A DNA stretch of 64,000 bases from an uncultured Alistipes sp. Its GTDB lineage: Bacteria > Bacteroidota > Bacteroidia > Bacteroidales > Rikenellaceae. Positions 6,949 through 14,218 of this stretch are shown piece after piece. Position numbers and translations under genes: made by a program. Within the stretch, counting starts at the first letter, position 1. Each line of letters opens with the position of its first letter. The stretch lies in assembly GCA_944321945.1 (NCBI GenBank), contig CALUNE010000009.1:1-64000 (forward strand). Reading direction: 5' to 3'. The notes under the pieces are model-generated. The model worked only from the letters and a program-made list of their open reading frames with translations. It was not told where the DNA came from and made no database searches.

Positions 6949-7842
6949 ATGAATAAGATGAAGACAAGATTTTTTGCTTTCGCAGCGCTGGCATTGACAC
7001 TTGCCGCCTGTAACAACGACAACGAGAACCTGAATGACGGCCCGGTAGCCGCCAAGTTTATCGCCGACATTACGCCCGCTACCCGCGTCAATTCGGAAGG
7101 AAACGAGTGGACCGAAGGCGACCGCATCGGCGTCACCGGCGCCGGCTTTACCAACGTGCCCTACAAGAGAGAGTACGGTATGTTCGTGCCTGACGGTACG
7201 GTCATCTATTTTGACGACACCGAAACCCATACCTTCCATGCCTACTATCCGTATCAGGCTGAGGGCGGAACGGTGACCGTCAGCACCGCAGCCGACAAAC
7301 AGGGCACGGGCATCGACTTCCTCTTTGCCTCGGGAGCCACGGGCGACACCCACAACCCGGAGGTGAGCTTCACCGACAAAACCGACAAAGGCGGCCCAGA
7401 CAACTCCTTCCAACACTGCATGAGTCTCATCAAGTTCACCTTCAAGGCGGGCGATGGCATCATTTTCAACGGAATGGAACCTGCCAGCTACACGTTGGGC
7501 GGGCTGAAGCACGAAGGCACATTCGACACGGCTACCGGAACGACTGCCGTAACCGCAGCCGCCAACTCGCCGATTACCATGCAGCTGGGCGGTGCCACCG
7601 CTTCGCAAGTCATCATTCTCCCGCAGGAAGTGACCATTCCTCTTGACCTGAGCGTGTCTTACAACGGACAGAGCTATACAGCCATACTGAAACTGCCTGA
7701 GACACCCACAGCCAATTTCTACACAGCAGGCTATGCCTACACCTACAACATAACGCTCAACAATAAGGACATCGAGGTGAGCGAACCCACAATTACTCCG
7801 TGGAAACCCGGCGATTCGTTCAATGCAAACTCTACGCTGTAA
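6949..7842 (+). CDS. Fimbrillin family protein (type V pilin-like)
   Basis: A 297-residue lipoprotein precursor with lipobox LAAC (Cys21). In known type V pilins the lipidated precursor is cut after an arginine by a trypsin-like protease; ITPATRV (Arg46) fits that position. Fimbrillin-like features follow: EWTEGDRIGV, a YFDDTETHTFHAYYPY segment, and SLIKFTFKAGDG in the middle, with a Tyr-rich YTYNITLNN strand near the C-terminus. It probably forms the pilus stalk or an accessory subunit at the cell surface. An in-frame ATG at 6958 is an equally good start. A GC-rich hairpin without a T tract (GCCGCC 7910-7915 with GGCGGC 7922-7927) lies between this and the next gene. Confidence 0.82.
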   Translation: MNKMKTRFFAFAALALTLAACNNDNENLNDGPVAAKFIADITPATRVNSEGNEWTEGDRIGVTGAGFTNVPYKREYGMFVPDGTVIYFDDTETHTFHAYYPYQAEGGTVTVSTAADKQGTGIDFLFASGATGDTHNPEVSFTDKTDKGGPDNSFQHCMSLIKFTFKAGDGIIFNGMEPASYTLGGLKHEGTFDTATGTTAVTAAANSPITMQLGGATASQVIILPQEVTIPLDLSVSYNGQSYTAILKLPETPTANFYTAGYAYTYNITLNNKDIEVSEPTITPWKPGDSFNANSTL

Positions 7843-7966
7843 GTTCCACACACCGCTGCCCCGGCGCAAGCGTCAAGCCGGAGCTGCCCATAGACACTAT
7901 GGTGCGACGGCCGCCTTCGCGGGCGGCGGCAGCACAAAACCGGAAACAAATAAAAAACAACCCGAT

Positions 7967-9565
7967 ATGAAGAAAAGAGATTCCATCCATGTACTTCTTG
8001 CAGCAGCCGCGCTGCTACTTGCCATGGCTGCCTGCACGAAGGACGAACTGGCGGACGGCAACCGTCTGCCCGAAGGACAATACCCCCTTGAGATAGCCTG
8101 CATCACCCTCGGCGTGGAGGGCGGCGAGGCGCAGCCCTGGGGCGCACCGCAGACGCGCGTCAGCGAGATTGCGGACGGCACGGGCAGCGTGTTCGACGCG
8201 GGCGACCGGTTCGCCGTGCAGATAGACGGCAAGGAAGAGGTCGGCACCTACACCGTGCAGGATGACCACACCGTCAAAGCCGAAACGCCCCTGTACTGGA
8301 GCGACCGCAACAACCACACCGTCAATGCCTGGTACCCCGCCACGGACGGCACCATCGACCTCGGCAACCAGAGCCAAAGTCTTGCCTATCTGCTGAGCGG
8401 TACGGGCACGGGCAAATATCCAGATCCCGTCACGCTGAACTTCACCCATGCTCTGGCGAAGGTACGCATCACGCCTTCGGACGAGGCAATCAACAAGGTG
8501 CAGAGCCTCCAGCTCTATACCTACACACAGTGTACCTACGAAAAAGGCAAGGCCGGACAAGGCTCGCAAGAGGGCTGGATAGAGATGAAGAAGTGCGAAT
8601 ACACCGAGAACGGCGCCACCACCACCTGCTGGGAGGCGAACGTGGTGCCCGGCTATTCCATTTCGAAACTTCGGGCAAACGGCATCGAGGTGCGCGACCT
8701 CTCCTCCGCCTTCACCCCCGAGGCGGGCAAGTTCTACAATATCACACTGAATTATGACAAGGGATATAACCTGTCTGCTGACGGCAGGACCTACGAGGTT
8801 TACAACGCCAACGGGCTGCTGGCATGGAACAAAGCCGTACAGGGCAACCTCTCGCTGAACTGCACCCTGACCGACGACATCGACCTTACTGGCAAAGAGT
8901 GGACGCCGATAGGAGACTACAATAACCGATACACCGGCACCTTCGACGGCGGCAACCATACCATCACGGGGCTGACTATCAACCAGTATGGAAGCTATGT
9001 GGGGATGATTGGCTTCCTCGACTCCGGTGGCACGGTGCAGAACTTGACGCTGGAAAACGTGAATATAACCGGCAACGTGCATATAATCTACGGCGGCGGC
9101 GACATTGTTGGCAGCGTGGTGGGAGACAACCACGGCACCGTGACCGCCTGCACTGCCTCGGGCAACGTCTCCGGCACCTTCTGTATCGGCGGCGTGGTGG
9201 GATGGAACCACGGCACCGTGACCGCCTGCTACCACGCCTCGGGCAACGTCTCCGGCACCTCCCATATCGGCGGCGTGGTGGGACGCAACACATCCGGCAC
9301 CGTGACCGCCTGCTACCACGCCACGGGCAACGTCTCCGGCACCTCCAATGTCGGCGGCGTGGTGGGATACAACATATCCAGTACCCTGACCGCCTGCTAC
9401 TGGAGCGGCCTCCCCGACAATGACAACGGTGGAGCCACGAAGGTGGACGGCACAACCGTTACCTGGCAGAACGCCGTTGATGCCATGAACACCGCCCTGC
9501 AGAGTGCAGGTTCAGAGTGGCGTTACGAACTCACCGGAGCATTGCCTACCTTGAAGAAACAGTAA
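7967..9565 (+). CDS. Fimbrillin-like lipoprotein with GLUG repeats, candidate tip adhesin
   Basis: A 532-residue lipoprotein with lipobox AMAAC (Cys23). PQTRV (Arg64) is a plausible pilin processing site. A fimbrillin-like domain spans about 65-260 (FDAGDRFAVQI, NAWYPATDG, NFTHALAKVRITP). From about residue 270 the protein changes to a beta-helical region starting with YEVYNANGLLAWN and containing FDGGNHTITGLTI, typical of GLUG proteins. Four near-identical units around GGVVG...GTVTAC...GNVSGT follow. I start it at the ATG at 7967, next to the signal peptide; the frame is open back to 7823 but without support. A repeat-bearing C-terminus on a pilin domain suggests a tip or adhesin subunit. 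Confidence 0.8.
   Translation: MKKRDSIHVLLAAAALLLAMAACTKDELADGNRLPEGQYPLEIACITLGVEGGEAQPWGAPQTRVSEIADGTGSVFDAGDRFAVQIDGKEEVGTYTVQDDHTVKAETPLYWSDRNNHTVNAWYPATDGTIDLGNQSQSLAYLLSGTGTGKYPDPVTLNFTHALAKVRITPSDEAINKVQSLQLYTYTQCTYEKGKAGQGSQEGWIEMKKCEYTENGATTTCWEANVVPGYSISKLRANGIEVRDLSSAFTPEAGKFYNITLNYDKGYNLSADGRTYEVYNANGLLAWNKAVQGNLSLNCTLTDDIDLTGKEWTPIGDYNNRYTGTFDGGNHTITGLTINQYGSYVGMIGFLDSGGTVQNLTLENVNITGNVHIIYGGGDIVGSVVGDNHGTVTACTASGNVSGTFCIGGVVGWNHGTVTACYHASGNVSGTSHIGGVVGRNTSGTVTACYHATGNVSGTSNVGGVVGYNISSTLTACYWSGLPDNDNGGATKVDGTTVTWQNAVDAMNTALQSAGSEWRYELTGALPTLKKQ
9110..9400 (+). repeat. Tandem GLUG-encoding repeats, 78-84 nt
   Basis: Four units begin at 9110, 9188, 9269 and 9353 with GGCRGCGTGGTGGGA. 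The middle two are nearly identical over most of their length (CACGGCACCGTGACCGCCTG, CGGGCAACGTCTCCGGCACC). All length steps are multiples of three, so gain or loss of a unit would keep the frame. Confidence 0.85.
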
Positions 9566-9688: not shown

Positions 9689-9719
9689 TTTGGTTTTTCA
9701 AAATTTTTTAGTATATTTG
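9689..9719 (+). promoter_or_regulatory. Promoter of the pheA leader and operon
   Basis: TTTG at 9689-9692 and TATATTTG at 9712-9719 match both consensus elements with a 19-base spacer. Transcription would start near 9725, about 17 bases before the leader peptide ATG. Confidence 0.88.
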
Positions 9720-9741
9720 TACCCAACAAGAGAGACAAACC

Positions 9742-9825
9742 ATGAGACTTTACGGTTTTGCATATTGCTTTTATTACTTTTTCTTTTATGCCAAAGGAAA
9801 AAGCGGGAGCGTATGCATCGGGTGA
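9742..9825 (+). CDS. pheL: Phe/Tyr-rich leader peptide of the pheA operon
   Basis: A 27-codon frame from ATG at 9742 to TGA at 9823. Residues 4-16 read YGFAYCFYYFFFY: ten of thirteen are Phe (5) or Tyr (5), with no Trp. It lies between a strong promoter and a strong terminator placed directly before pheA, the classical layout of ribosome-mediated attenuation. Codons 10-16 (9769-9789) are the expected stall site; a ribosome stalled there would leave bases from about 9803 free to form the antiterminator. The symbol is by analogy with the enterobacterial pheA leader; the sequence itself is different. The peptide is not expected to act apart from its translation. Confidence 0.87.
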   Translation: MRLYGFAYCFYYFFFYAKGKSGSVCIG

Positions 9826-9875
9826 CACCCCGGACCGAATCGTCGAAACAACGCATACTCACATGAAAATCCCGC
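9803..9875 (+). promoter_or_regulatory. Antiterminator pairing of the pheA attenuator
   Basis: GCGGGA (9803-9808) can pair with TCCCGC (9870-9875), and GTATGC (9811-9816) with GCATAC (9853-9858), with G9809-C9860 between them. This long-range stem uses the 5' arm of the terminator, so the two folds exclude each other. A ribosome that finishes the leader (stop at 9823) covers 9803-9816 and lets the terminator form; one stalled at the Phe/Tyr codons leaves that stretch free. Confidence 0.7.
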
Positions 9876-9897
9876 ACGAAACCCGTGCGGGATTTTT
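9866..9897 (+). terminator. Attenuator terminator upstream of pheA
   Basis: CCCGCACG (9871-9878) pairs with CGTGCGGG (9884-9891) around a 5-base loop, extended by AAAAT/ATTTT. T residues run 9893-9897, 18 bases before the pheA start. Confidence 0.92.
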
Positions 9898-9914
9898 CTT
9901 TAATCAACAACGCC

Positions 9915-10760
9915 ATGGACAGAATCGCCATACAGGGCATCGCAGGATGCTACCACGAAACCGCCGCCCGCCGCTACTTCACCGATCGGGAGATCGAGGT
10001 GCTGCCCTGCTCGAGTTTCGAACGGCTCTTCGAACGGCTGGCCGAAGACCCCGCGCTGCTGGGCATCGCCGCCATCGAAAACACCATCGCCGGAAGCCTG
10101 CTCCCCAACCATGAGCTGCTCCAGCGCAGCCACGCCCGCATCGTCGGCGAACAGAAAATCCGCATCTCACACGTCATCGCCGCACTGCCCGGCGAGCGAC
10201 TGGAGTCCATCCGCGAAGTCCACTCCCATCCCATCGCCCTGATGCAGTGCGGCGAATTTCTCAAGAGCCGCCCCGACATGAAGGTCGTCGAACGGGACGA
10301 CACGGCCGGCAGTGCCCGCGAGATCGCCCGAGAACGCCTCGCCGGAACGGCCGCCATCTGCGGAGCCGACGCCGCCCGAATGTACGGACTCAAGATCCTG
10401 CAGCGCGGCATCGAGACCAACCGCCACAACTTCACGCGCTTTCTGCTGCTGGCCGACGAAAGCCGCGCCGCCGAATTCTCCGACCCACGACGCACGAACA
10501 AGGCCTCGCTCGTCTTCACGCTCCGCCACACACAGGGCTCGCTGTCGAAGGTGCTGACCGTCCTTTCGTTCTACGACATCAACCTCACGAAGATCCAGTC
10601 GCTGCCGATCATCGGCCGCGAATGGGAGTACCGGTTCTACGTCGACGTCACCTTCGACGACCCCGTCCGATACCGCCAGGCCATCGACGCGGCCCGCCCG
10701 CTGACCAGCGAATTCCGCATCCTGGGCGAATATGCCGAGTGCGGCAGTCCCGAAATCTGA
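9915..10760 (+). CDS. pheA: Prephenate dehydratase
   Basis: A 281-residue cytosolic monofunctional enzyme that converts prephenate to phenylpyruvate in phenylalanine synthesis. The catalytic domain (1-180) has AAIENTIAGS (52-61) and the essential TRF motif (Thr174-Arg-Phe176). A C-terminal ACT domain (about 195-275) follows, with KASLVFTL and KIQSLPI in place of the usual GALV and ESRP motifs; in this family it binds Phe for feedback inhibition. The ATG at 9915 is chosen because the open frame before it lies inside the attenuator terminator. The DAHP synthase/chorismate mutase gene follows after 60 bases, so both enzymes are probably under the same Phe/Tyr attenuation. Confidence 0.95.
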   Translation: MDRIAIQGIAGCYHETAARRYFTDREIEVLPCSSFERLFERLAEDPALLGIAAIENTIAGSLLPNHELLQRSHARIVGEQKIRISHVIAALPGERLESIREVHSHPIALMQCGEFLKSRPDMKVVERDDTAGSAREIARERLAGTAAICGADAARMYGLKILQRGIETNRHNFTRFLLLADESRAAEFSDPRRTNKASLVFTLRHTQGSLSKVLTVLSFYDINLTKIQSLPIIGREWEYRFYVDVTFDDPVRYRQAIDAARPLTSEFRILGEYAECGSPEI

Positions 10761-10820: not shown

Positions 10821-11885
10821 ATGAACGACATTCAACCCATCACACTTCCCGGGGTCGATCCCCGGCGGCCGCTGGTCATCGCAGGTCCGTGCAGCGCCGA
10901 GACCGAAGAACAGGTACTCGAAACGGCCCGCATTCTCGCTTCGGAAGGCATCCGCATCTACCGGGCCGGCCTGTGGAAACCGCGCACCAAACCCGGAGGC
11001 TTCGAGGGGGTCGGCGAACGGGGCATCCCGTGGCTGCAGCGCGTCAAACGCGAAACGGGCATGTACACCGCTACGGAGGTCGCCACGCGGCAGCACGTCG
11101 AAACGGCCCTCAAGGGCGGCGTCGATCTGCTCTGGATCGGTGCCCGCACGGCGGCCAACCCCTTCGCCATGCAGGAGATTGCCGATGCCCTGCGCGGGGT
11201 CGACATCCCGGTGCTGGTGAAAAATCCCGTCAGCCCCGACCTCGAACTGTGGATCGGCGCCATCGAGCGCATCTACAACGCCGGAATCCGCCGGCTGGGA
11301 GCCATCCACCGCGGCTTCACCTCCATCGACAAGAGCATCTACCGCAACCACCCGATGTGGGCCATCCCCATCGAGCTGCACCGCCGTCTGCCCGAACTGC
11401 CGATCTTCTGCGACCCGAGCCACATCGGCGGCAAACGCGAACTGATCGCCCCGCTGTCGCAACAGGCCATGGACATCGGGTTCGACGGCCTGATCATCGA
11501 GGCTCACTGCGCGCCCGACTGCGCCTGGAGCGACAAGGCCCAGCAGGTGACGCCCGATGCCCTGGCCTACATTCTGCGCAACCTGGTCATCCGCGAGCAG
11601 ACCGTCACCACGGACAGTCTCAATGAACTGCGCGCCCAGATCGACAAGCTGGACGATCAGCTGCTCGAACTGCTCGTGCGGCGGATGCGCGTCTCGCGCG
11701 ACATCGGTCAGTACAAGAAGGAGCACGACATGCCCATCCTCCAGACACAGCGTTACGAGGAGCTGCTGGCCCGCCGCGCCGCTCAGGCCGTCGAACTGGG
11801 CATGGACCGCGAATTCATGCGGACGGTCATGCAGGCCATCCACGAAGAGTCGGTCCGTCAGCAGATGGAGATCCTCGGCCGGTAA
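10821..11885 (+). CDS. Bifunctional DAHP synthase / chorismate mutase (AroQ type)
   Basis: A 354-residue fusion. The N-terminal part (1-260) is a KDO8P/type I-beta DAHP synthase: GPCSAE (22-27), KPRTKPGGFEG (53-63), and DPSHIGGKR near 190. It joins phosphoenolpyruvate and erythrose-4-phosphate, the first step of the shikimate pathway. The C-terminal part (about 262-354) is an all-helical AroQ chorismate mutase (LNELRAQIDKLDDQLLELL, then SRDIGQYKKEH), which makes prephenate, the substrate of the PheA encoded just upstream. The same fusion is common in Bacteroidales. No tyrA or aminotransferase gene follows; a repeat array lies after the stop. Confidence 0.95.
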   Translation: MNDIQPITLPGVDPRRPLVIAGPCSAETEEQVLETARILASEGIRIYRAGLWKPRTKPGGFEGVGERGIPWLQRVKRETGMYTATEVATRQHVETALKGGVDLLWIGARTAANPFAMQEIADALRGVDIPVLVKNPVSPDLELWIGAIERIYNAGIRRLGAIHRGFTSIDKSIYRNHPMWAIPIELHRRLPELPIFCDPSHIGGKRELIAPLSQQAMDIGFDGLIIEAHCAPDCAWSDKAQQVTPDALAYILRNLVIREQTVTTDSLNELRAQIDKLDDQLLELLVRRMRVSRDIGQYKKEHDMPILQTQRYEELLARRAAQAVELGMDREFMRTVMQAIHEESVRQQMEILGR

Positions 11886-12111: not shown

Positions 12112-12792
12112 ATGGCAAAACACAAAATCCTCGTGGTCGACGACGAAGAGTCGCTGTGCGAAATTCTCCAGTTCAACCTCGAAGTCGAGGGATACGACGT
12201 CGACGTGGCCTACAGCGCCGAACAGGCCCTCGAAATGCACCCCGAACGCTACTCGCTCATCCTGCTCGACGTGATGATGGGCGAAATGAGCGGCTTCCGC
12301 ATGGCCCGCATCCTGAAGGAGAACCCCGAAACGGCCCGCGTGCCGGTGATCTTCTGCACGGCCAAGGACTCCGAAGACGACACCGTCGCCGGACTGAATC
12401 TCGGCGCCGACGACTACATTGCCAAACCCTTCTCGATCCGCGAAGTGCTGGCCCGCGTGCGCAGCGTGCTGCGCCGCACCGCCTCGGCCGAACCCGAACA
12501 CGAAACCATCGTCTTCGAGGGCCTCGAAATGGATCTCAAACGCAAGGTCTGCACGCTGGACGGCTCGGAACTCGCCCTCACGAAGAAGGAGTTCGAGATC
12601 CTGGCCCTGCTGCTCGCCCATCGCGGCGTGATCTTCTCGCGCGAGGAGATCCTCCACCGCATCTGGAGCGACGAGGTGATCGTGCTGGACCGCACGATCG
12701 ACGTCAACATCACCCGCCTGCGCCGCAAGATCGGCCCCTACGGCAAACACATCGTCACGCGTCTGGGATATGGCTACGGCTTTGAAGAGTAG
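12112..12792 (+). CDS. OmpR/PhoB-family response regulator
   Basis: A 226-residue cytosolic regulator. The receiver domain (1-118) has the acidic pair D10/D11, phospho-acceptor D53 in LLDVMMGEMSG, T82 and K104 in the AKPFS motif. The winged-helix DNA-binding domain (about 128-225) contains ALTKKEFEILALLLAHRG and VDVNITRLRRKIG-like recognition segments ending RLGYGYGFEE. The histidine-kinase gene overlaps its end by 23 bases, and a Pit-family phosphate transporter gene with a PhoU-like tail follows. That context suggests a PhoB-like role, but an RprY-type stress regulator is the main alternative; nothing in the sequence settles it. Confidence 0.93.
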   Translation: MAKHKILVVDDEESLCEILQFNLEVEGYDVDVAYSAEQALEMHPERYSLILLDVMMGEMSGFRMARILKENPETARVPVIFCTAKDSEDDTVAGLNLGADDYIAKPFSIREVLARVRSVLRRTASAEPEHETIVFEGLEMDLKRKVCTLDGSELALTKKEFEILALLLAHRGVIFSREEILHRIWSDEVIVLDRTIDVNITRLRRKIGPYGKHIVTRLGYGYGFEE

Positions 12793-14218
12793 ACTCTCCT
12801 ACCATCGGCGGCTCTTTCTGCTGCTGCTCGCCTTCTCGTGGACGCTCGTAGCCTGCTTCGTACTCTTCCAGTACGGCCGCGAGAAGCACTTCAAGGCCGA
12901 ACGGCTCAACGCACGGCTGCAGCTCTTCAACCTGCGGATGCTCGACGCCCTGGACGAGGGCGAGGATCCCGCCTCGTTCATCGCCACCCACGACGAACCC
13001 TTCGAGGAGCTGCGCATCACGCTCATCGACCGCGCCGGACACGTCCTCTTCGACAACTCGCTCGACACACTCCCGACGGCCAACCACCTCGACCGTCCCG
13101 AAGTGGTCGATGCCCTGGCCAACGGCTCGGGATACATCATCCGCCGCCATTCGGCGAGCACCCATCTCAACTACTTCTATTCGGCCCAGCTCGGCGACCG
13201 CTACATCGTCCGCTCGGCCGTTCCCTACTCGCTGACGCTGAGCGAGGTGCTGGCCGCCGACCGCGAATTTCTCTGGTTCATGCTCGGCATCACGCTGCTG
13301 ATGAGCATCGCGGGCTACTTCGCCACACGGCGGCTCGGCCACAACATCTCGCGGCTGAACGACTTCGCCGAACGTGCCGAACGCGGCGAACGGATCGATG
13401 AAGTCGAACCCTTCCCGCACGACGAACTGGGCGAAATCTCGAACCACATCATCCGCCTCTACGCCCGCCTGCAGCGCACCACCGCCGACCGCGACCGCGA
13501 ACACGCCCTGGCCCTGCACGAGGAGCAGGAGAAGATCCGCATCAAGAAACAGCTCACCAACAACATCAACCACGAGCTGAAGACCCCCGTAGCGGCCATT
13601 CAGGGCTATCTGGAGACGCTGCTGGCCAATCCGCGGATCGACGAGCGCCACCGCCGGGAGTTCCTCGAAAAGAGCGCCGCACAGACCGAACGGCTGCGGC
13701 GGCTGCTCGCCGACGTGTCGACCATCACGCGCATGGACGAGGCGAGCCAGCTGATCCAGAAGGAGCCCGTCGTTCTGAACGACCTGATCGACGAAGTGGC
13801 CGACGAGATGGCCCTCAAACCCGCCGAACAGCGGTTGCGCGTGAACGTCGACTTCCCGAAACAGGTCGAGATCCTCGGCAATCCGGCGCTGCTGGGTTCG
13901 ATCTTCCGCAACCTGGCCGACAACGCCTCGGCCTACTCCGGCGGCCGCGACATCTACATCCGGCTGCTCGACGACACGCCCGACGAGTGCACGATCCTCT
14001 TTGCCGACAACGGCATCGGCGTCGGCGAGGAGCATCTGGCCCACCTCTTCGAACGTTTCTACCGCGTCGACAAGGGGCGTTCGCGCAAAATGGGCGGGAC
14101 GGGCCTCGGCCTCTCGATCGTCAAGAACGCTGTGATGATCCACGGCGGCACGATCACGGCCCGCAACCGCGACCGCGGCGGCCTGGAATTTGTCTTCACG
14201 CTGAAAAAAAAGAGCTGA
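12770..14218 (+). CDS. Sensor histidine kinase, PhoR-like by context
   Basis: A 482-residue inner-membrane kinase with two membrane segments (about 14-34 and 167-187) enclosing a periplasmic sensor region of about 130 residues. A HAMP-like linker (188-240) follows. The HisKA motif is NNINHELKTP with phospho-acceptor H268, and the catalytic ATPase domain (about 370-480) has the N box NLADNASAYS, ADNGIGVG and GGTGLGLSIV. It is translationally coupled to the response regulator (23-base overlap), which is its obvious partner. I keep the ATG at 12770 because it gives a basic N-terminus before the first membrane segment. Confidence 0.92.
   Translation: MATALKSRLSYHRRLFLLLLAFSWTLVACFVLFQYGREKHFKAERLNARLQLFNLRMLDALDEGEDPASFIATHDEPFEELRITLIDRAGHVLFDNSLDTLPTANHLDRPEVVDALANGSGYIIRRHSASTHLNYFYSAQLGDRYIVRSAVPYSLTLSEVLAADREFLWFMLGITLLMSIAGYFATRRLGHNISRLNDFAERAERGERIDEVEPFPHDELGEISNHIIRLYARLQRTTADRDREHALALHEEQEKIRIKKQLTNNINHELKTPVAAIQGYLETLLANPRIDERHRREFLEKSAAQTERLRRLLADVSTITRMDEASQLIQKEPVVLNDLIDEVADEMALKPAEQRLRVNVDFPKQVEILGNPALLGSIFRNLADNASAYSGGRDIYIRLLDDTPDECTILFADNGIGVGEEHLAHLFERFYRVDKGRSRKMGGTGLGLSIVKNAVMIHGGTITARNRDRGGLEFVFTLKKKS

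Follow-up and report, generated by a model that had tools for sequence, protein, structure and literature searches.

In the pheA/pheL and trp-type attenuators of enterobacteria, a short leader rich in codons for the product of the operon is combined with alternative 1:2, 2:3 and 3:4 helices, and in the pheA case a terminator stands before pheA. Ribosome-mediated attenuation requires that a ribosome start promptly on the nascent RNA and keep pace with the polymerase. The closeness of transcription-translation coupling in Bacteroidetes is, to our knowledge, little studied. Bacteroid-trp RNA is a Trp attenuator. This RNA (RF01692) was reported as a probable cis-regulatory RNA of Bacteroidetes (PMC2864571). 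In Bacteroides thetaiotaomicron, a putative attenuator before the pheA > hisHb > aroAIbeta-aroQ > tyrA operon is entered in a Table 7 taken from Merino's web list (2005; PMC1173090), an entry that is silent on the leader peptide, its codons, alternative folds and distribution. The 5′ UTRs of B. thetaiotaomicron contain short ORFs reminiscent of leader peptides, and Bacteroidetes mRNAs are described as being without Shine-Dalgarno sequences (PMC7366714). In Flavobacterium psychrophilum, a structured 5′ element without an Rfam hit lies before pheA and is kept in other genera of its family, and the same paper mentions 'strong clues' of leader-peptide attenuation at amino-acid operons of flavobacteria (PMC9723704). 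The main text of PMC2965389 contains neither 'bacteroid' nor 'pheA'. PMC4833913 counts leader genes in Bacteroidetes and makes no mention of 'pheA'.

The pheA locus described here lies in a 64,000-nucleotide stretch of DNA (the window, analyzed as a whole) from a draft genome of 2.2 Mb that is 78% complete. Among the matches listed, the closest named relatives of its PheA belong to Alistipes (Rikenellaceae, Bacteroidales, Bacteroidia), with 86–87% identity. The locus shares with enterobacterial pheA/pheL a short leader of product codons, alternative helices and a terminator before pheA, but it has equal numbers of Tyr and Phe codons, a Bacteroidota promoter and a pheA gene beside a separate DAHP synthase/chorismate mutase gene. 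The Rfam model Phe_leader (RF01859) does not match the site even at E ≤ 10, and its matches elsewhere in the genome are weak, with none over the cut-off. A covariance-model search of this genome for Bacteroid-trp gave no match, and no T-box family occurs among the Rfam covariance matches. Weak Rfam scores for Thr_leader and Leu_leader (E about 0.04, far below gathering) were set aside as generic terminator likeness. The attenuator listed for B. thetaiotaomicron (PMC1173090) has the same position and a related operon, and it very likely represents a relative's version of the element described here. The F. psychrophilum element (PMC9723704) is also a structured 5′ region at pheA, but it belongs to the Flavobacteriaceae. 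Subscription papers and supplements aside, no account of this leader peptide, its spread, its spacing rule or same-signal doublets was found in the literature. The comparison strongly supports reading the locus as an instance of a classical mechanism that is thinly described in this phylum and was already predicted in outline in one relative.

Architecture of the pheA leader region

All features of the locus lie on the plus strand. The gap between the end of a fimbrillin-like gene on the same strand (9565) and pheA (9915) holds a promoter, a leader ORF and a terminator, in that order. The promoter (9689–9719) consists of a −33 TTTG element (9689–9692) and a −7 TATATTTG element (9712–9719) with 19 nt spacing, following the sigma-ABfr consensus quoted in PMC7366714. 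Transcription is expected to start near 9723. A consensus promoter had been placed here by an earlier reading made from the letters of the window (the sequence-only reading), and the promoter is indeed present and of the Bacteroidota type. Neither this Bacteroidota-type promoter nor the terminator was listed by a sigma-70 scan and a simple terminator scan of the window.

The leader ORF (9742–9825) comprises 27 codons plus TGA, MRLYGFAYCFYYFFFYAKGKSGSVCIG, running from the ATG at 9742 to the stop at 9823–9825, and is conserved in sampled relatives. Phe or Tyr occupies codons 4, 6, 8 and 10–16, which gives ten Phe/Tyr among thirteen residues, with five Phe and five Tyr codons. In the minimum-free-energy fold, residues 9759–9772 of the leader RNA pair with 9805–9817 around an inner helix (9777–9787 with 9793–9803) to form the segment 1:2 hairpin (9759–9817), a predicted pause/protector structure. 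Segment 2 (9803–9816), composed around GCGGGA and GTATGC, is also the 5′ strand of a predicted antiterminator, whose 3′ strand spans 9853–9875. By script-derived coordinates, the lower helix of the antiterminator joins 9803–9808 to 9870–9875 and its upper helix joins 9811–9816 to 9853–9858; residues 9870–9875 are shared with the 5′ arm of the terminator. The strong intrinsic terminator (9866–9901) pairs 9866–9878 with 9884–9896 and carries the T run TTTTTCTTT at 9893–9901. The distance from the terminator hairpin (9866–9896) to the pheA ATG is 18 nt. The 27-codon aromatic leader and the terminator 18 nt before pheA, both claimed in the sequence-only reading, stand as described, and the coordinates and counts of that reading agree with the sequence.

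The pheA gene (9915–10760) encodes a prephenate dehydratase (Pfam PF00800, 2.4e-51) whose ACT domain scores below its Pfam cut-off. The ATG at 9915 was chosen as its start by the analyst, and a GTG lies in the same frame at 9885. The following gene (10821–11885) encodes a DAHP synthase fused to a type II chorismate mutase (Pfam PF00793 and PF01817), and the two genes are presumed to form an operon. Two adjoining fimbrillin-like (Mfa_like_1) genes are located just upstream (6949–7842 and 7823–9565), and a Bacteroidetes-type PhoB/PhoR two-component pair is located just downstream (12112–14218).

Distribution and amino-acid content of the leader

Sampled pheA loci number 82 in the genus and family of the window, 46 in the remaining families of its order, 17 elsewhere in its class and 17 elsewhere in its phylum; these kinship groups come without taxon names, and the names behind 'family', 'order' and 'class' are deduced. 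The own-family set combines 30 of the 53 genus matches with 12 loci from a further search and 40 hand-picked from other genera. The order set contains 46 of the 49 genomes with a match (G000, G489 and G527 omitted), and the 34 loci from the rest of the class and outside it were hand-picked among 215. A leader was defined as an ATG-initiated ORF of 9–48 codons with at least six Phe/Tyr in 13 residues, located within 400 nt of pheA, and leader counts are limited to loci that have 250 nt or more before pheA (three fall short of this).

A leader of this kind precedes pheA at 73 of 80 own-family loci, at 40 of 45 from other families of the order and at 12 of 17 from elsewhere in the class, amounting to 125 of 142 sampled loci class-wide. 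None was found near pheA at the 17 sampled loci outside the class. None occurs either in 556 control stretches of 400 nt before other long ORFs of the class loci (at least 150 codons, either strand, unchecked as genes). Among dinucleotide shuffles, 0.1–3.5% pass by group, the value for own-family pheA upstream regions being 1.3%. A terminator follows 123 of the 124 leaders that are strongly aromatic (F/Y ≥ 7), at a median of 25–29 nt past the stop by group. A second, named sample, which overlaps the first in some genomes, contains both leader and terminator at 69 of 79 loci, including Phocaeicola vulgatus ATCC 8482 and Bacteroides xylanisolvens XB1A; this set is the best 80 of at least 593 stretches, reduced to 79 by one locus with too little upstream sequence. 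A TAnnTTTG (−7) box is present in the 70 nt preceding the leader in 166 of 185 cases vs 12 of 500 background windows. The gap from the end of this box to the leader ATG is 22 nt in the window. In ten Alistipes-group loci and two others (L012–L020, L041, L226 and L233), the box ends 7–11 nt before the ATG, and in those 12 loci the 5′ UTR should be very short and the leader ORF may be almost leaderless.

A PheA match is present in only 53 of 101 own-genus genomes (20 of the 38 good ones), a pattern that might reflect loss of phenylalanine synthesis in many of them. These matches split into 24 with 65–100% and 29 with about 35–44% identity to the window PheA, and a separate search added one further genus member with 52% identity. 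In the low-identity group, a leader is present at all six loci inspected (L025–L030). In one family member, the PheA match (G125:C12:27260-28063) is interrupted by a single in-frame TAA.

Leader composition was compared in 59 non-redundant leaders, reduced from 122 that have a terminator and enough spacer for pairing tests; the redundancy cut of 0.72 similarity was the analyst's choice, and the remaining loci are still related. Both Phe and Tyr occur in 58 of the 59, and F and Y interchange at positions of the aromatic run. Phe accounts for 0.233 and Tyr for 0.157 of residues, frequencies inflated by the selection of these leaders at F/Y ≥ 7, and at run positions −5 to −3 the two residues are equally common. 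No residue is fixed class-wide in a position-by-position comparison of the leader peptides. As judged from these sequences, the conserved feature is F/Y codon content, not a fixed peptide. The composition supports the proposal of the sequence-only reading that the leader would sense both amino acids. Trp is found in 14 of the 59 leaders, and Trp codons lie inside or beside the aromatic run in the leaders of L083, L093, L097, L129, L139 and others; leaders that hold Trp perhaps sense all three aromatic amino acids.

Leader and operon were counted together at loci with enough flank on both sides (14 short-flank loci left out), using F/Y ≥ 6 within 700 nt as the leader definition. In the rest of the class, 12 loci combine the leader with a DAHP synthase/chorismate mutase gene downstream and 5 (two genera) lack both, and neither was found at the 17 loci outside the class. 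Family and order loci contain both in 97 cases, neither in 3, the gene without the leader in 8 and the leader without the gene in 6. These counts support a tendency of leader and operon to occur together, and the co-occurrence outside the own order supports the earlier suggestion that dual sensing suits an operon with this second gene.

A search for more Phe/Tyr runs in the own draft genome was discarded: five consecutive TTY/TAY codons gave 13 matches vs 23 for the reversed pattern, without excess, and the pheA leader itself accounts for three of the 13. Among four short-frame Phe/Tyr runs that were read, L163 and L171 resemble promoter stretches, and L170 and L175 show no leader by eye.

Alternative RNA folds and ribosome-scale spacing

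The RNA of residues 9726–9905 folds more stably than its shuffles (z = −5.9), but the 9790–9880 piece, limited to the antiterminator, shows no unusual stability (z = −1.3; matched by 23 of 200 shuffles). In a genus alignment of 13 sequences, the terminator covaries, with 5 pairs changed on both sides, a level reached by 1 of 500 shuffles. The lower helix of the antiterminator is 92% paired in this alignment and the upper helix 46%, and antiterminator covariation is not above that of shuffles. Alignment-free pairing tests were used because the class sequences are too diverged to align and the genus alignment is not decisive for the antiterminator.

Across the 59 leaders, segment 2 pairs with the terminator arm of its own locus at a mean of −15.1 kcal/mol vs −9.95 kcal/mol with the arms of other loci (mismatched-arm permutations: standard deviation 0.33; lowest of 10,000, −11.18). 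The own segment 2 ranks in the best 5% of partners for 47% of the 59 arms and in the best 20% for 80%, and the own arm pairs better than a reversed arm of the same composition in 50 of 59. The leader codons, in turn, pair with their own segment 2 as a 1:2 protector at −18.8 vs −13.3 when permuted. Tested leader by leader, the antiterminator reaches p ≤ 0.05 against shuffles in 99 of 136 cases, and the antiterminator of the window gives p = 0.07. The upper antiterminator helix is unsupported class-wide in the pairing test (26 of 59, p = 0.59). The long-range stem of the sequence-only reading (9803–9816 with 9853–9875) is present, with its lower helix supported class-wide and its upper helix not; the conservation expected of relatives was found for leader and terminator as well as for the lower helix of the antiterminator. 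The protector pairing of 9759–9772 with 9805–9817, which was absent from that account, is supported class-wide.

The antiterminator is positioned at a nearly constant distance from the aromatic codons. Counted from the first base of the final aromatic codon, the 5′ edge of the antiterminator lies at a median of 12 nt (interquartile range 10–13; 59 leaders) and at 9–17 nt in 50 of 59, vs a median of 17 nt (interquartile range 8–26) for shuffled segments. The edge counts one dangling base, and the first paired base is usually one further on. A spacing of about 12 nt corresponds roughly to the downstream edge of a ribosome holding that codon in its A site. In the window, a ribosome at the stop codon would, given the usual reach of a ribosome, cover much of segment 2.

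When a stalled ribosome is imposed on the finished window RNA, the terminator (−38.3 kcal/mol) is favored over the antiterminator (−28.1 kcal/mol). With the stall in place, the antiterminator is predicted to be the preferred structure as long as the emerged transcript stops between about 9874 and 9888; beyond this the terminator gains the advantage, which reaches about 10 kcal/mol in the finished RNA. Because the terminator is favored in the finished RNA even with a stall, antitermination would have to be kinetic and be decided before the 3′ arm of the terminator is made.

Probable mechanism of attenuation and serial doublets

The locus has the organization of a trp/phe-type attenuator. A promoter-proximal short ORF rich in product codons and a terminator precede the first structural gene, the antiterminator is mutually exclusive with the terminator and would capture its 5′ arm through the lower helix, and a 1:2 protector hairpin is present, with segment 2 predicted to lie just beyond a stalled ribosome and to be covered by one at the stop codon. 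Taken together, the data make it highly probable that a ribosome-mediated transcription attenuator governs pheA and the DAHP synthase/chorismate mutase gene through the supply of charged tRNA-Phe and tRNA-Tyr. With Phe and Tyr plentiful, the ribosome would reach the stop codon at 9823–9825 and cover segment 2, the terminator (9866–9896) would form, and transcription would end near 9897–9901. With either tRNA scarce, the ribosome would stall on the Phe/Tyr codons, the last of which finishes at 9789. Segment 2, which starts 13 nt further on at 9803, would then lie just outside the stalled ribosome and be free to pair with the emerging 5′ arm of the terminator, so that the polymerase would read into pheA. 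If the leader were untranslated, its codons would pair with segment 2 (9759–9817) and the terminator would form.

The leader is well conserved and contains recurring motifs (FAY in Alistipes and SPFY in other family members), as would also be expected of an arrest peptide whose nascent chain, and not codon starvation, stalls the ribosome. This reading is very improbable given the interchange of F and Y by position and the lack of a class-wide fixed residue; furthermore, the GCAT of the leader that is invariant in the genus alignment sits in bases that pair as segment 1. Since the alternative folds exist irrespective of the leader ORF, a riboswitch, a T-box or an RNA-binding protein might instead choose between them without translation. 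Such control gives no role to the constant spacing from the last aromatic codon or to the open aromatic frame. No Rfam family reaches its gathering score at the window site, and the Rfam matches in 20 relatives are only two tRNAs and two Flavo-1 RNAs, which leaves translation-independent control extremely improbable.

Sensing of Phe only (or of Tyr only), with the other codons as passengers, is unlikely. The higher frequency of Phe than of Tyr in the leaders and the Phe-specific first gene would suit it, but Tyr accompanies Phe in all but one of the 59 leaders and equals it at positions −5 to −3, and the second gene makes the shared precursor. The same-strand gene that ends at 9565 allows the region to be read as an ordinary terminator of this fimbrillin-like gene together with a chance ORF. 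That reading is barely credible, as the promoter sits after the gene and the leader recurs at 125 of 142 class loci vs 0 of 556 controls.

Among the 46 loci examined from the rest of the order, 40 bear a leader, and eight of these have two Phe/Tyr leaders in series, each with its own terminator: L086, L094, L099, L102, L107, L108, L114 and L125. The eight doublets carry eight different family labels in a sample drawn almost one per family. In all eight, the stretch from the first terminator to the second leader lacks a strict TAnnTTTG box; such a box is found upstream of the first unit in five, not in L086, L094 or L099. Both antiterminators reach p ≤ 0.05 against shuffles in five doublets (L086, L107, L108, L114 and L125), one does so in L099 and in L102, and neither does in L094. 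The paired units within one locus differ in sequence in the five doublets compared. The named set contains one doublet in 79 loci (L224), which resembles L107. No doublet was found among the sampled own-family loci or among those from the rest of the class, apart from the own-family candidate L014, which was rejected because its first 'leader' looks like the tail of the upstream gene; the window itself has a single unit. In Salmonella mgtCBR, one leader RNA contains two leader ORFs and two attenuators, which sense ATP and proline (PMC3641672). That tandem responds to two different signals, whereas both leaders are Phe/Tyr-rich in the eight pheA doublets.

On balance, we consider it more likely than not that Bacteroidia share one ancestral pheA-operon attenuator that senses Phe and Tyr with a fixed ruler of about 12 nt and initiates without Shine-Dalgarno sequences, and that it was doubled into series behind one promoter in several Bacteroidales families. 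If this is true, initiation without Shine-Dalgarno sequences would mean that ribosomes trail the polymerase closely in this phylum, and a doublet would be a two-gate switch. The serial doublets are the part that a specialist would least expect, and they constitute a natural experiment on what two gates do with a single signal. An attenuator that is widespread in the class and has ribosome-scale spacing is indirect evidence for transcription-translation coupling and could serve as a natural reporter of it. It also gives aromatic amino-acid synthesis a regulatory annotation in gut bacteria, including Alistipes, Bacteroides, Phocaeicola, Prevotella and others.
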